A stretch of DNA of 32,333 nucleotides from an uncultured Acidimicrobiales bacterium (GTDB lineage: Bacteria > Actinomycetota > Acidimicrobiia > Acidimicrobiales > AC-14): the NCBI GenBank assembly GCA_902805665.1, contig CADCTB010000030.1:1-32333 (forward strand), in the 5' to 3' direction. The notes under the pieces are model-generated. The model did not search any database, was not told the DNA's origin, and worked only from the letters and a program-made list of their open reading frames with translations. Shown here in pieces: positions 19,995 to 32,333 of this stretch (position 1 is the stretch's first letter; the number at the start of each line of letters is the position of its first letter). The position numbers were made by a program, and so were the translations under genes.

Positions 19995-21143
19995 TCACCA
20001 GGCCGGCCCGACCTCGACGGTGTTCACCGGCGCCTCGCGGACGGTGGTGACGAGCAGCCCACCCGGTCCCGTGGCCAGGCCGCTGACCCGGCCGGCCGGA
20101 GGGCGCAACAGCTCCGTCGCCCGTCGCGGGCCGGCGAAGAGCACCCGTCCGTCGTCGAGGGGAAAGGCGTAGCTGCCCTCCGGCCCGAGCGCCGGGCCTC
20201 CTCGCACCGCGGCGCCGTCGCTCGTCACCTGCCACGTGCGCCGGCCGGTGGCGGCATCGAGCAGATCGAGCCCGCCCAGGCGGTGGGCCACCAGGACGGA
20301 CCGGGCGTCGACGACGAGCGGCGGCACCTCGGCCGACCCCGCGCCCTCCACCGGCGTGCGCCAGCGCGGCTCGCCGGAGCTCATGGCCAGTGCGTGGGCG
20401 GCGAGGTCTCCCGCCACCGTCACCGCCGTGCCGCTCGGCGTGACCGTCGGGGCGCTGATCCCGCCGCCGGGAAGGGGCACGGCCCAGCGCTGTCGCCCGG
20501 TGGAGGCCTCGACTGCGACGGCGCCCCCGGTGCGCCGGTCGGCCCGGTCCCAGGTCACCACCACCGTGGTGCCGTCGGTGGCCGGTGGTCCGAGCGAGGG
20601 CCCCGGGAGGGCAGCCCTCCAGGCGACCTTCCCGTCGGCGAGGTCGAAGGCGATCACCGTTCCCTCCCAGGTGGAGGCCACCGCCAGGCGGCCGGCGATC
20701 ACGGGGGTATTGACCCGTTCGGCCACTGTCGCGTCCCAGATCTTGGCGCCGTCGGACCGGCGGAACGCAGCCATGCCGTCGTCGGTGGCCGCCACGACCG
20801 CCTCCGGAGTCAGCCGCGGGGCGACATCGCGCAGGCCCAGCCGGTACCCGTCCCACATGAGCCGGCCGTCGGCGTCGAGGAGCACGAGATGCTGATGGCC
20901 ATAGGTGAACGCGATCTCCCGGTCGTCGGCCGCGGGCATCCCGATCCAAGCCGGTGGCGGCGCGGTCCAGGCCCACCCGTTCCCGGCCGGGGTGGCGTCG
21001 GATCCGGGCCGGGAGGCGTTGCCTTCACCGCCCTGGGCGCTTGGCGGCGGCCCGCCTCCGCCCGGGCCGGCGGAACGGCAACCGGCGGCGGCCAGCAACG
21101 CCAGGAGGCACAGGATGCGGGCGAGGCTAACGAGGCTGGTCAT
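19995..21143 (-). CDS. PQQ-like beta-propeller lipoprotein
   Basis: The 382-residue protein has a lipoprotein-type signal with LLAAAGC (C22 as the acylated cysteine), then a Gly/Pro/Ser-rich linker to about residue 55. Propeller blades follow, with repeats such as LVLLDADGRLMWDG, AAFRRSDGAKIWDA, VIAFDLADGKVAWRA, AVEASTGRQRWAV and LDLLDAATGRRTWQV. This is the PQQ-enzyme/BamB-like repeat pattern. No PQQ dehydrogenase catalytic motif is seen, so a binding or scaffold role at the outer face of the membrane is more likely. The ATG at 21143 follows AGGAGG at 7 bases. It overlaps the end of the LytM/lipase gene by 17 bases, suggesting the two act together. Confidence 0.83.
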   Translation of the reverse strand: MTSLVSLARILCLLALLAAAGCRSAGPGGGGPPPSAQGGEGNASRPGSDATPAGNGWAWTAPPPAWIGMPAADDREIAFTYGHQHLVLLDADGRLMWDGYRLGLRDVAPRLTPEAVVAATDDGMAAFRRSDGAKIWDATVAERVNTPVIAGRLAVASTWEGTVIAFDLADGKVAWRAALPGPSLGPPATDGTTVVVTWDRADRRTGGAVAVEASTGRQRWAVPLPGGGISAPTVTPSGTAVTVAGDLAAHALAMSSGEPRWRTPVEGAGSAEVPPLVVDARSVLVAHRLGGLDLLDAATGRRTWQVTSDGAAVRGGPALGPEGSYAFPLDDGRVLFAGPRRATELLRPPAGRVSGLATGPGGLLVTTVREAPVNTVEVGPAW

Positions 21144-22806
21144 GGTCGTACCTCCTGGGAACGGTGGGACTGGGAAGCGCATCGTTGATCTTGCGGTCGA
21201 CCGCCCGGCCGCCGGCCCAGGCTGCGGCGCCGATGGTGGTCTCGGCGGAGTAGATGAAGCCGGACACTGCGGCGTCGGCCATGGCGTCGGCGAACGTCTG
21301 GCACGTGGGAGCCAGGCCGGCCAGGCCGAGGGCGATCTCCCGCCGGGCCTGTGAGGACCCGGGAAGGTTGCCATGGTCGTTCAGGTGCCCCGGCGCCGAG
21401 ACCGTCACGTTCTTCGCCCCGGTGAGCACCGTCTGGCCGGCAGGCACAGCGAGGTCCTCGCGGGCGGCGATGGACGTCGCCTTCACGCCGGGCGGGAGGG
21501 ACTTGCGGCTGAGCCGGGCCAGGAACTCCGAGTGCTCGGCCATCTGCTTCACCGACATCCCGCCCAGCTCGACCTGGTCGGGGAGGGCGGCATGGGCGCC
21601 GGTGATCATGACCTCACCAGGCGTGGTGTGGCCGAACATGGCCAGCCCCGTGGCGGCGGGGGCCCCCTTGTGTGGGCTGCCGAGGGTGACCAACGAGTTG
21701 ACCTCGGGCAGGCGGGCATCGGTGGGCTCGGCCTCATCGGTCAGCGCCGTCCGGGCCACCAGCCCGCCCTGGGAGTGGGCGATGACATCGACGGGCACCC
21801 CCGGGTTCTCCGCCTCCAGGCGGGCGAGCAGCTCCCGTAGGCGGCGGGCCGACGTGCGGATGTCGGTGGTGGTGTCGGCCACGCCGTAGGGGTTCTCGGT
21901 GGTCGTGCCGCCCTTGTAGGAGAAGCGGACGTCGTCGGCGCGCGCATAGCCCAGGGCGGCGGCGTCGACGTCGTCTATGGCGCCGTTGTCGCTGGTCGAG
22001 CCCAGCCCGGCCACCCGGACGAGGATGTGGCGCTCCTGCAGCCGCGGAGGCGGGACCGACTCCGACGTGCAGGTCTCCCGGGCCTTCCACCACGCATGGG
22101 CGGCGGAGGCGAAACGGGCGTAGTGGGCCGCCGGCTGGAGCGCCCGGGCGTAGTGCAGGGCTCCAAGGGCTTCGTCGAAGGTCTGGCTGATGGCTCCTTC
22201 GGCCGCCTCGACCAGCCGGTCGCGGGCCCAGTCGGCCGCCGCCGCGCCGCCCGCCACGGCCCGGCCCGCCCAGCCCTGGAACATGCGGGCCACACCGGCC
22301 CGCTCCTTGGCCTCGGTCTGCGGGCGCCGCAGCTCCTCGGGAACCAGGTGCACCTCGGGTGGGCCGCCGCCGAAGAGCTCGGCCGGGTCGAGGTAGGCAT
22401 CGCCGGCCCGAACGCCGAAGTGGAACCGGGCCTGGGTGGTCCCGAGCGTCTGGCCCTGCTTGACCTTGTCGCCCCGCTTGACGCCGACCAGGGCCAGGAA
22501 CGAATAGCTGGTCCGGAGCCCGTCGTCGTGGAGGACGACGACATGGAGGCCGTCGGCGACCGGCCCGGCGAAGACCACCTCGCCTGCGGCCGACGCCGCG
22601 ACCGGCGTCCCCGGCTCGGTGGCGTACTCGAGACCACGGTTGCCGGCGTTCCAGTTCGCCGGGGGAGCACGGAACGCGTCGACGATCGGCGCGTCGACCG
22701 GAGGCCGGTAGGTGACCGGAGTGGCAGGAGCGGCGGTGCCGGCTGACGCGGGTGCGGACGCGGCGAGCGCGACGAGTATGGCCAGCACGACGGCCAACCG
22801 GCGCAT
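21127..22806 (-). CDS. Secreted fusion of a degenerate LytM (M23) domain and an alpha/beta hydrolase (lipase-like)
   Basis: A Sec signal peptide (residues 1-22, ending ASAG) precedes a LytM-like domain at about 35-146. The zinc site looks lost: the first His is N56 (GNRGLEYATEPGTPV, with E60 for the usual Asp), and the HxH motif reads R127-F-H129. Such domains act as regulators or binders, as in EnvC. A helical linker (about 150-250) leads to a hydrolase domain with LVRVAGLGSTS, the nucleophile elbow AHSQGG (S345), and a late GHLNDHG that may supply the catalytic His. It may remodel or release envelope lipids; the substrate is unknown. Actinobacteria commonly have an M23 gene between whiG and rpsB; the fused hydrolase is the unusual part. 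The next gene overlaps it by 17 bases. Confidence 0.85.
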   Translation of the reverse strand: MRRLAVVLAILVALAASAPASAGTAAPATPVTYRPPVDAPIVDAFRAPPANWNAGNRGLEYATEPGTPVAASAAGEVVFAGPVADGLHVVVLHDDGLRTSYSFLALVGVKRGDKVKQGQTLGTTQARFHFGVRAGDAYLDPAELFGGGPPEVHLVPEELRRPQTEAKERAGVARMFQGWAGRAVAGGAAAADWARDRLVEAAEGAISQTFDEALGALHYARALQPAAHYARFASAAHAWWKARETCTSESVPPPRLQERHILVRVAGLGSTSDNGAIDDVDAAALGYARADDVRFSYKGGTTTENPYGVADTTTDIRTSARRLRELLARLEAENPGVPVDVIAHSQGGLVARTALTDEAEPTDARLPEVNSLVTLGSPHKGAPAATGLAMFGHTTPGEVMITGAHAALPDQVELGGMSVKQMAEHSEFLARLSRKSLPPGVKATSIAAREDLAVPAGQTVLTGAKNVTVSAPGHLNDHGNLPGSSQARREIALGLAGLAPTCQTFADAMADAAVSGFIYSAETTIGAAAWAGGRAVDRKINDALPSPTVPRRYDHDQPR

Positions 22807-22980: not shown

Positions 22981-23763
22981 CTATCGGGTGGAGCTCACCG
23001 TGGGGTCGGACAGCTTGGAGCGCAGCTGGATGACCGCCTTGGTGTGGATCTGGCACACCCGGCTTTCGGTGATCCCGAGGATGCCCCCGATCTCACCAAG
23101 GGTCAGGCCCTCGTAGTAGTAGAGGGTGAGGACGATCTTCTCCCGCTCGGCCAGACGGTTGATGGTCTGGGCGAGGATCTGCTTGGTCTCCTCGACCTCG
23201 AACGCCCCGACGGGGCCCAGCCCGGCGTCGGGAATGGTGTCGCCCAGGGTCACCGACTCGCTGCGATCAGCACCGACCGAGACCGTCTCCTCGAGTGCCA
23301 CCAGACCGAAGAAGGAGATCTGGGTGAAGACGTCCTGCAGCTCGGCCTCGGTGGTGCCGAGCTCCTCGGCGACCTCGGCATCGGTGGGCGTGCGCAGGAG
23401 CTCGTGCTCGAGCTTGGTGTAGACCTTCTCGACCGCCCGGGCCTTGGCCCGCAGCGAGCGCGGGACCCAGTCGATAGACCGCAGCTCGTCGATGATCGAG
23501 CCCCGGATCCGGGACATGGCGTAGGTCTCGAACTTGAAGCCCCGGGCCGGCTCGAACTTGTTGATGGCGTCGATCAGGCCGAACATGCCGTAGCTGACCA
23601 GGTCGGCCTGCTCGATGCTGTTGGGGAGGCCGGCGGACAGACGCCCGGCCACGTACTTCACCAGGGGCGAGTAGTGGACGACGAGACGGTTCCGGTCCTC
23701 CATCGAGCCCGTGGACTTGAAGTCCTCCCAGAGCTTGGTGATGGCGGCCGACTGGGGTTCCAC
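22981..23763 (-). CDS. whiG: RNA polymerase sigma factor, FliA/WhiG family
   Basis: This is a group 3 sigma-70 factor of 260 residues. Region 2 is complete: RNRLVVHYSPLVKYVAGRL, then DLVSYGMFGLIDAINKFEP and FKFETYAMSRIRGSIIDELR. Region 3 follows (RTPTDAEVAEELGTTEAEL). Region 4 contains LTLYYYEGLTLGEIGGILGI and ITESRVCQIHTKAV, the -35-binding helix-turn-helix. The gene order xerC-sigma-M23-rpsB matches streptomycete whiG, where it controls sporulation genes; in motile relatives the same family drives flagellar genes. No anti-sigma gene or flagellar gene is in the window. The start is GTG at 23763, 6 bases after the xerC stop. A FliA/WhiG-type promoter upstream of 31247 is a candidate target. 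Confidence 0.92.
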   Translation of the reverse strand: MEPQSAAITKLWEDFKSTGSMEDRNRLVVHYSPLVKYVAGRLSAGLPNSIEQADLVSYGMFGLIDAINKFEPARGFKFETYAMSRIRGSIIDELRSIDWVPRSLRAKARAVEKVYTKLEHELLRTPTDAEVAEELGTTEAELQDVFTQISFFGLVALEETVSVGADRSESVTLGDTIPDAGLGPVGAFEVEETKQILAQTINRLAEREKIVLTLYYYEGLTLGEIGGILGITESRVCQIHTKAVIQLRSKLSDPTVSSTR

Positions 23764-30049: not shown

Positions 30050-30400
30050 TCACCTGACGGTGCGCTTCTCCTTGATCTTGGCCTTCTTCCCGATCCGGTC
30101 GCGCAGGTAGTAGAGCTTGGCCCGCCGCACGTCGCCCAGCCGGTCGACGTCGATCTTGGCGATGATCGGCGAGTGGACCGGGAAGGTGCGCTCCACGCCG
30201 ACGCCGAAGCTGATCTTGCGGACGGTGAAGGTCTCTCGCACGCCCGAGCCCTGGCGGCGGATGACGACCCCCTGGAAGACCTGCACCCGCTCCCGGTTCC
30301 CCTCCACCACCCGCACGTGGACCTTGAGCGTGTCGCCCGGGCCGAATTGGGGGATGTCGTCGCGAAGGCTGTCGCGATCGACGAGATCGGTGGGGTTCAT
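30050..30400 (-). CDS. rplS: 50S ribosomal protein L19
   Basis: L19 sits at the 30S-50S interface. The 116-residue protein contains the hallmarks [41 protein letters not shown] and the family C-terminus [21 protein letters not shown] in adjoining motifs. Length is normal. The ATG overlaps the trmD stop as ATGA (30397-30400), implying coupling. Confidence 0.97.
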
Positions 30401-31170
30401 GGCGCGCTCGACTCCTGCGACGGGTCTTCCGGGGACAGGCCATGGTACTCCGACCACCCCAGGACCTCCAGCAGGGCGGTCTCCTCGGCGCTGAGGCCAC
30501 CCCTCGCCTCGATCAGATCGGGTCGACGGGCCACCGTGCGGGCCAGCGCCACGGCGCGCCGCCACCGGGCCACCCGGGCGTGGTCGCCGGAGCGCAGCAC
30601 CTGCGGGACCACCCACCCACGGAAGTCCGCCGGACGGGTGTACTGGGGGTGCTCGAGCAGCCCGTCGACGAAGGACTCCTCGCCGGCCGACGCCTCGTTC
30701 CCCATCACCCCGGGCACCAGGCGGGTCACCGCCTCCACGATCACGAACGCCGCCGCCTCGCCACCGGCGAGCACGAAGTCGCCGATGGAGAGCTCACCGT
30801 CGACCAGGTGCCGGCGCACCCGCTCGTCGACGCCCTCGTAGCGGCCGCACAGGAGCGAGAAGCCGGGCCCGCCGGCCAGCTCGACGGCCACTTCCTGGTC
30901 GAAACGGCGACCGCCCGGATCGAGCAGGAACAGGGGGCGTTGAGGTTGCACCGCCTCGACCGCCCGGAAGACCGGCTCGGGCGACAGGACCATGCCCGCG
31001 CCGCCTCCGAACGGCGAGTCGTCGACCGACCGGTGACGGTCGGTTGTGTGGTCCCGGAGGTCGTGGACCCGTACGTCGACCAGTCCCCGCTCCCGCGCCC
31101 GGCCCAAGAGGCTTGCCGACAGCGGCGCCTCTAGTATCTGCGGCAGGGCGGTGAAGATGTCGATCCGCAT
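30397..31170 (-). CDS. trmD: tRNA (guanine-N1-)-methyltransferase TrmD
   Basis: TrmD makes m1G37 in tRNAs and prevents frameshifting. The 257-residue protein has [12 protein letters not shown] at the start, the [17 protein letters not shown] loop, the SPOUT knot motifs [13 protein letters not shown] and [13 protein letters not shown], and YTRPADFRG with the catalytic Asp. The ATG at 31170 follows GGGGCGAC. It heads the trmD-rplS-lepB group; rimM, ffh and rpsP, often adjacent, are not upstream here, where a divergent lipoprotein gene lies. Confidence 0.96.
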
Positions 31171-31184
31171 GTCGCCCCAGTTTC

Positions 31185-31212
31185 TACAGCGGCGGTCCGG
31201 ATGTGCCGATAA
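31185..31212 (+). promoter_or_regulatory. FliA/WhiG-type promoter ahead of the lipoprotein pair
   Basis: A perfect GCCGATAA -10 box (31205-31212) is preceded at 16 bases by TACA (31185-31188), one base off the TAAA -35 core of FliA/WhiG promoters. It ends 34 bases before the GTG start of the lipoprotein gene. The match is seen in the sequence; control by the whiG-like factor at 22981 is inferred. Confidence 0.5.
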
Positions 31213-31246
31213 GGGACACAGCATCCATAGGCGAGAGGAACCTCAC

Positions 31247-32110
31247 GTGCGGACCCGATTCTCCATCCTGATTCCTACAGTCGCGCTCGCAGCCGCCCTG
31301 ACGGCCTGCGGGGACAGCGGGCCGAGCAAGACCGACTTCGCGACCAAGGCCGACGGGTCCTGCGCGGCGGGCAACACCGCCATCTCGAGCGCGGCCAAGC
31401 CCACCAACGCCCCCCAGGTGGCGACCGCGGCGGGCACCGCCGTCTCCACCGTCGACGGCCAGGTGGCCATGCTCCGGGCCATGAAGATGCCCGGCGGCAA
31501 GGACAAGGCGCAGGTGGAAGGGGTCATCGCCGCCATCGGCGAAGTCAGCGCCCCCACCAAGGCGCTCCAGGACGCGGCGGCCAAGAACGACGACGCGGCC
31601 ATGGCCAAGGCCGGCGCCGAGATGCAGACCAAGGTCGACGCCGCGGCCACGTCGGCTCAGACCTTCGGCCTCACTCAATGCGGCACCGGCCTCAAGCCCG
31701 CCGTGGCCAATCTGTTCGAGGGGACCAAGTCGGTGGTCAAGAGCTCGTACGTCACCAAGTCCGAGACGCTGTGCCGCGACGCCTACCGCAAGTCCGACGC
31801 CATCGCCGCCCCCGGCAACTCCCTGACCTCCGTCGCCCGGTACCTCGACGCCTTGGTGGTCATCTCCACCAAGCTGGGCACCGACCTCAGGGCCATTCCC
31901 ACCCCTCCGGGCGACGAGGGGACGGTCGGCGAGTTCGTCACCGCCCTCGAAGCCCTCAACGGCAAGATGAAGGACGCCAGTGCGGCGGCCAAGGCCAACA
32001 ACCCGCGGCTCATGATCGCCCTCTCCGACGAGCTCGACGTGGCCACGACGGCCCTCAACGCCAAGCTCGACGCCTACGGCCTCAAGACCTGCGGCACCGC
32101 CGGCATATGA
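31247..32110 (+). CDS. Lipoprotein with two internal repeats
   Basis: The 287-residue protein starts at GTG 31247, 6 bases after AGAGGAA. A signal with lipobox LTAC gives C21 as the acylated residue. The mature part consists of two similar, Ala-rich, mostly helical repeats (about 29-147 and 166-284). Each begins TK(A/S)x..C and ends (F/Y)GL..CG, with cysteine pairs C39/C145 and C176/C282 that could form one disulfide per repeat. No family is recognised; the fold may be a helical bundle at the cell surface. Its TGA overlaps the ATG of a paralogous gene. A WhiG-type promoter lies upstream. Confidence 0.8.
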   Translation: MRTRFSILIPTVALAAALTACGDSGPSKTDFATKADGSCAAGNTAISSAAKPTNAPQVATAAGTAVSTVDGQVAMLRAMKMPGGKDKAQVEGVIAAIGEVSAPTKALQDAAAKNDDAAMAKAGAEMQTKVDAAATSAQTFGLTQCGTGLKPAVANLFEGTKSVVKSSYVTKSETLCRDAYRKSDAIAAPGNSLTSVARYLDALVVISTKLGTDLRAIPTPPGDEGTVGEFVTALEALNGKMKDASAAAKANNPRLMIALSDELDVATTALNAKLDAYGLKTCGTAGI

Positions 32111-32333
32111 GCCGGCGGCTGGGGTGGCCGGCGCTCGGTGCTCTGGCGCTGGCCACCGCCCTGACGGCCTGCGGGGACAGCGGGCCGACCAAGGCGGACT
32201 TCGTGGCCAAGGCCGACGGGTCCTGCGCGGCGGGCAACACCGCCATCTCGAGCGCGGCCAAGCCCACCAACGCCCCCCAGGTGGCGACCGCGGCGGGCAC
32301 CGCCGTCTCCACCGTCGACGGCCAGGTGGCCAT
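31344..32333. repeat. 127-bp identical direct repeat in the two lipoprotein genes
   Basis: Positions 31344-31470 and 32207-32333 match base for base at an offset of 863, and the match is cut only by the window edge. Upstream the alignment continues at the same offset (from about 31295/32158) with a few changes. This points to recent duplication or gene conversion. Confidence 0.9.
32107..32333 (+). CDS. Paralogous lipoprotein, N-terminal part (cut by window edge)
   Basis: The ATG at 32107 overlaps the upstream stop as ATGA. The first 75 codons encode a signal with lipobox LTAC, then CGDSGPTKADFVAKADGSC and on, nearly the same as the first repeat of the upstream protein. From 32207 to the window end (127 bases) the DNA is identical to 31344-31470. 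The signal-peptide part differs, so the copies are not a simple whole-gene duplication. The rest is outside the window. Confidence 0.8.
   Translation, partial: MSRRLGWPALGALALATALTACGDSGPTKADFVAKADGSCAAGNTAISSAAKPTNAPQVATAAGTAVSTVDGQVA

Follow-up and report, generated by a model that had tools for sequence, protein, structure and literature searches.

A short intergenic sequence in front of a tandem pair of lipoprotein genes in an uncultured Acidimicrobiales bacterium raises the question of which sigma factor reads it and which set of genes it would join. We analysed the contig that carries it over its full 32,333 nt (the window; contig C30 of genome G000) together with two congeners (G001 and G002) and further relatives. 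Sequence comparisons lead us to read the site as probably a WhiG promoter that drives a lipoprotein operon and belongs to a regulon of signalling and envelope genes; it is not a motility promoter in the window's genome. A check of the window's sequence bears out what an earlier note had described, namely TACA (31185–31188), 16 bases and then GCCGATAA as a perfect −10 box, correctly placed and oriented before the GTG at 31247 (Table 1). The promoter-like site ends 34 nt upstream of that start, points towards the lipoprotein gene and lies outside trmD. The note's choice of TAAA as −35 consensus did not hold up: inspection of eight GCCGATAA places in the genome led us to replace it by CTCAAG, the main form in the host's family, and TACAG, one base off TAAAG and two off TCAAG, fits neither exactly. 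Counted from TACAG, the distance to the −10 is N15, the spacing that prevails among matches in that family.

Table 1. Features of the lipoprotein/trmD locus and the sigma factor gene (positions in the window)
Feature	Position	Strand	Basis and remarks
−35-like element TACAG	31185–31189	+	Sequence; the form usual in the genome is TCAAG
TCTACAGCGG block	31183–31192	+	Invariant across three congeneric genomes (alignment)
−10 element GCCGATAA	31205–31212	+	Exact; GCCGATAA in G001, GCCGACAG in G002
Ribosome-binding block GGCGAGAGGA	31230–31239	+	Invariant across three genomes
Lipoprotein A1, 287 aa, lipobox LTAC	31247–32110	+	Translation, orthologues, predicted structure
Lipoprotein A2, start overlaps A1 stop (ATGA), runs off contig	32107–32333	+	Translation
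trmD, divergent	30397–31170	−	PF01746, 195.6 bits
Possible trmD −10, TAGAAA (TAGACA in both congeners)	31181–31186	−	Upstream sequences; inferred
Sigma factor WhiG	22981–23763	−	NF004935, 343.5 bits (cut-off 343); WhiG of 6pfj, 298 bits

Taken alone, the −10 is not striking within 32 kb, since at least one GCCGATAA turns up in 17 of 100 shuffles (one in the window, 0.18 expected), and the 3.52-Mb genome holds eight, fewer than the 15 of a reversed control. The combination TACA-N14..17-GCCGATAA occurs once genome-wide (reversed control, 0). At two other GCCGATAA places before genes, one of them a lipoprotein gene, the −10 is preceded by TCAAG at a distance of exactly 15 bases. Allowing up to two mismatches, TCAAG-N15-GCCGATAA has 94 matches in the window's own genome against 18 for the reversed pattern. 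That control does not correct for codon bias, and TCAAG and GCCGA are frequent in coding frames, so we turned to a spacing test instead. Exact TCAAG-N10..20-GCCGATA has 61 matches in ten genomes of the host's family, 51 of them at N15 and the other ten scattered (three at N14, two each at N16 and N18, one each at N10, N12 and N20). The motif family TCAAG-N15-GCCGATA is real, and the host's family probably uses it as a promoter.

All 15 sites with at most one mismatch in the window's genome were examined; 11 lie outside predicted genes and point at a gene, ten with a predicted start 7–113 nt downstream and one (L028) with a start identified by eye. Another stands 46 nt upstream of a start and overlaps the tail of the gene before it, and three fall within predicted genes. 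Among the 79 two-mismatch sites, 36 were inspected besides the window site (14 fetched in contig order, 22 among the 24 top matrix scores of the remainder), and 16 of these lie outside predicted genes. The intergenic share of fetched sites is 17/21 in G001 (24 present), 8/9 in G002 (13 present) and 9/10 in a further relative, G006 (16 present), a share biased by the fact that these sites were mostly chosen by eye, passing over those with the look of in-frame codons. The gene predictions come from a home-made codon model rather than annotation, and this model places the G002 lipoprotein site in a spurious long frame. For six own-genome targets (L021, L022, L024, L026, L027 and L030), the G001 counterpart has a site of its own as well; the target on contig C199 (L031) has a counterpart with a site in G006 and, by eye, in G002. 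A perfect TCAAG-N15-GCCGATAA also spans an ATG (ATGGCCGATAA) in all three congeners (L018 on G000:C73, G001:C35:6801 and G002:C69:44411), which may be due to chance in coding sequence or mark a promoter located within the start of a gene.

The likely own-genome targets include, by domain scan, a receiver-PAS-histidine kinase, an ECF sigma factor, an FG-GAP protein and an fn3 protein, with further candidates in an Hpt protein and a STAS-like protein (Pfam matches just below cut-offs) and an Excalibur lipoprotein. These other likely targets fall under signalling and secreted proteins. In a scan of 14 non-pilus targets neither GGDEF nor EAL domains turned up, but eight of these targets are truncated where the fetched stretch stops, and domains may have been missed there. 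Motif density is 1.73 per Mb in 73 genomes with a WhiG-class match (best match at least 235 bits) and 1.20 per Mb in 42 without (rank test p 0.008, no kinship correction; three of the 118 genomes, with split, ambiguous sigma genes, left out), a weak difference, confounded by kinship and coding-strand words, that we do not use as proof. A possible natural control is family f3, of which three genomes (G011, G069 and G108, best FliA/WhiG match 197–205 bits) hold 1, 1 and 0 sites at 0–1 mismatch, compared with 13–24 in genomes of genus g1.

We built a weight matrix from 45 intergenic sites (11 from G000, 17 from G001, 8 from G002 and 9 from G006), leaving the window site out. It gives the window site 18.3, the best score on both strands of the window (runner-up 12.4), and of 300 dinucleotide-shuffled versions of the window, 3 contain a site scoring at least 18.2. 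Among 133,062 own-genome positions not fetched for the motif, two reach 18.2: the window site and the C199 site. The window site nevertheless scores below the lowest leave-one-out training score (19.0), and TACAG is found in none of the 45 training sites (44 TCAAG, one TAAAG), which had been picked with at most one mismatch. In the congeners, the corresponding sites score 15.8 in G001, the best on its stretch, and 11.1 in G002, third on its 19.5-kb stretch. By these scores the window site has a good −10, good spacing and good placement, but an atypical −35.

The FliA/WhiG-family sigma factor that the earlier note had seen in the window is present, and it is nearer WhiG than FliA as judged by profile and chain comparisons. 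It passes the NCBI WhiG equivalog cut-off narrowly, and also those of the FliA/WhiG family and the FliA subfamily (NF005413, 229.8 versus 201); its nearest solved relative is the WhiG of 6pfj (Table 1), the best FliA chain reaching 157 bits. Adjoining whiG, a single frame (21127–22806, minus strand) encodes M23 peptidase and alpha/beta-hydrolase (PGAP1-like) domains, and by eye a similar gene adjoins whiG in G001 and G002. A DNA pattern for the RsiG motif hits six places in the genome (control, 5), one of which lies in a 178-aa protein on G000:C22. This RsiG homologue matches the RsiG/AmfC chain of 6pfj (phmmer 4.1e-13) and the RsiG chains of 7lq2–7lq4 (6.4e-5 to 1.3e-4). Its first motif, EDRVSYLRRMIQGRLD, is complete (E-X3-S-X2-R-X3-Q-X3-D) and its second imperfect, with F in place of Q (E-RKV-S-TS-R-RGL-F-GRI-D). 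The RsiG/AmfC-like anti-sigma gene (L165, minus strand) directly adjoins a glycosyltransferase-like gene, which we take to resemble mshA.

A homologue of the A1 lipoprotein occurs in 8 of 118 genomes searched, the window's own included. The three genus members G000, G001 (64% identity) and G002 (70%) carry it in linkage with trmD; it lies on a separate contig from trmD in G006, G016, G019 and G023, and is present in G109, which was not part of the trmD search. Across the three linked upstream regions TCTACAGCGG, GCCGA-A and GGCGAGAGGA are invariant, and spacer and leader have largely diverged. Both congeners have WhiG, and the motif, whose absence before orthologues in sigma-keeping relatives the earlier note had raised as a test, is kept in each of them: exactly in G001 and as the weak GCCGACAG site in G002. 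The more distant homologue in G023, from another family, has GCCGATAA before its start and nothing −35-like at N15 (matrix score −0.3), and no good site was found upstream of the homologues in G006 and G019. With WhiG and an RsiG homologue present, a spacing and −10 that fit the motif family, and a footprint in the congeners, a WhiG-type promoter is well supported.

What the promoter would serve is an array of lipoproteins. A1 matches no Pfam family and, among NCBIfam models, only the LIC11966 surface-protein family under its cut-off (24.3 versus 40). Its predicted structure (pLDDT 88) consists of two tandem helical bundles, for which Foldseek gives no match at E ≤ 0.001 and a second structure comparison gives only four-helix bundles of the b562 type and membrane receptors (Z about 10–11); as this range is common for helical bundles, we draw no function from it. 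A2 is 89% identical to A1 over 64 aa, and its remainder probably lies at G000:C199:3-689. Contig C199 opens inside an A-type gene (80% identical to A1) and continues with lipoprotein B, an ABC ATPase, an FtsX/MacB-type permease, an SGNH lipoprotein and a DUF72 gene. We infer the C30–C199 joint; the 40 bases that close C30 are found again at the start of C199, and A1 holds the identical 40 bases too. G002 carries, on one contig, trmD, A, B and then the same downstream genes in the same order as C199 (MacB/FtsX-type ABC transporter, SGNH lipoprotein; named from the domains on C199). Within the window, a stretch of 127 bases is identical between A1 (31344–31470) and A2 (32207–32333), where it reaches the last base of the contig; it is a sign of recent duplication or gene conversion, and this repeat is probably why the contig ends at 32333. 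G001 has four tandem lipoproteins in the order A-B-A-B (G001:C172; L213 8845–12329), with other genes behind them; the leader and start of the first gene recur at the third without the promoter, and the site stands before the first A alone.

The earlier note had proposed the lipoproteins as motility-regulon members, and a flagellar (FliA) promoter would share the −10 consensus (PMC8325347, in the portions available) and could look to a sigma factor that passes the FliA subfamily cut-off. Flagellar FlhA, however, has no match in G000 (96% complete) and is absent from 9 of 10 relatives searched, and the sigma factor is nearer WhiG; the source bacterium seems to lack flagella, and the absence of FlhA led us to rule out the flagellar reading, which we regard as extremely improbable. 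Nor is a pilus reading supported for the window's genome, where PilT stays below its cut-off (best 54.7 bits versus 319.1; 7 of 11 genomes pass). The pilus-cluster stretches of G001 (which ends with its contig), G002 and G006 hold no site above 14.2, although the pilin site of G004, counted as a site, also scores just 14.2. In G004 (G004:C116; L211 3873, 6512 and 8205), CTCA-N17-[GA]CCGA[TA]A precedes a pilin gene, pilT and a second motor-like gene, the last matching pilT_fam under its cut-off (175.9 bits), and in G003 one site precedes the gene just before pilT. The note's other word, developmental, is plausible in the sense of a WhiG- and c-di-GMP-controlled change of lifestyle.

The neighbouring trmD gene suggests other accounts of the conserved block. 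It could be the −10 of a nearly leaderless trmD promoter, with the lipoproteins using an ordinary promoter and GCCGATAA coincidental: trmD opens a minus-strand gene run here, whose promoter has to lie within the 76-nt gap or close by, all three congeners keep the block unchanged and equally far from the trmD ATG, and TCTACAGCGG, longer than a −35, may serve trmD through TAGAAA/TAGACA, which sits 10 nt before that ATG and overlaps the WhiG-type −35. Yet the block is absent before trmD in 26 of 29 loci (in many, by eye, another gene ends in front), the hexamer lacks the final T of a sigma-A −10, a simple scan finds no sigma-70 site, and the conservation of GCCGA at exactly N15 is left unexplained; we consider this account unlikely. 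An arrangement compatible with the WhiG promoter has the WhiG-type −35 and a trmD −10 overlapping, so that two polymerases exclude each other. The elements do overlap, at 31185–31186, and the conserved block extends past the −35 in both directions, but the trmD element is weak, which leaves the arrangement conceivable and rather doubtful. The low score and GCCGACAG in G002, together with the atypical −35, might instead mark a relic or decoy, a former WhiG promoter now without function; against this, none of the three genomes has lost the −35 block or GCCGA, though their spacers and leaders have largely diverged, and we think it quite improbable.

Under the WhiG promoter that we favour, RNA polymerase with WhiG would read the −35 TACAG and the −10 GCCGATAA, 15 bases apart, and start a transcript at about 31218–31220. 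The transcript would span the tandem lipoproteins and, across the contig break, probably the MacB/FtsX-type ABC transporter and the SGNH-hydrolase lipoprotein. At high c-di-GMP, RsiG would hold WhiG inactive; a drop in c-di-GMP would free WhiG, and the lipoproteins would be expressed alongside some twelve or more further targets, which include signal-transduction and secreted proteins.

This kind of promoter is itself already known. WhiG uses the flagellar consensus, and twin-motif RsiG is reported in three of four Acidimicrobiales (PMC8325347, in the portions available). In Rubrobacter, the one case outside Streptomyces worked out within the literature found, WhiG promoters were located through TAAA/GCCGATAA, and for 12 of the 20 a mapped start site follows closely downstream (same portions of PMC8325347). 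So far as those portions go, our system resembles it in having WhiG, an RsiG, a GCCGATAA −10 and targets in a bacterium outside Streptomyces, and the sites on type IV pilus genes in G003 and G004 recall its type IV pilus cluster. It differs in its CTCAAG −35 in place of TAAA, in an RsiG homologue of one complete and one imperfect motif rather than the single-motif form, and in the absence of GGDEF/EAL from the targets scanned. Streptomyces WhiG, which acts in sporulation (6pfj/6pfv), and its RsiG/AmfC are the nearest solved relatives; its known targets, going by the available part of PMC4255298, are the whiH/whiI pair, a pair that does not figure among the targets identified here through motif sites and domain scans. 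FliA/SigD flagellar promoters share the −10 consensus and a near −35 (TAAA), in contrast to a window genome without flagellar FlhA. The FliA-family promoters of Actinoplanes missouriensis, CTCA-N15-17-GCCGAA, have a CTCA-type −35 like that of the host's family, and differ in being linked to flagella and zoospores. On a CTCA-type consensus, the literature searched held nothing relevant. WhiG is widespread but intermittent in actinobacteria, morphologically simple ones included, where its role is largely open according to the available part of PMC4255298. The literature searched, with subscription papers mostly outside it and some sources present in part (PMC8325347, PMC4255298, PMC13232838 and PMC10733313 included), yielded no account of WhiG targets in Acidimicrobiia.

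What emerges is a first, DNA-based sketch of the genes that WhiG may control in Acidimicrobiia. With a sharp N15 peak and targets common to several genomes, this regulon can be tested directly across an entire uncultured family. If the overlap with a trmD −10 is true, WhiG occupancy at the lipoprotein/trmD locus would also block the trmD promoter. The distribution of sites suggests that, within one family, the switch has moved between pili and envelope/signalling genes.
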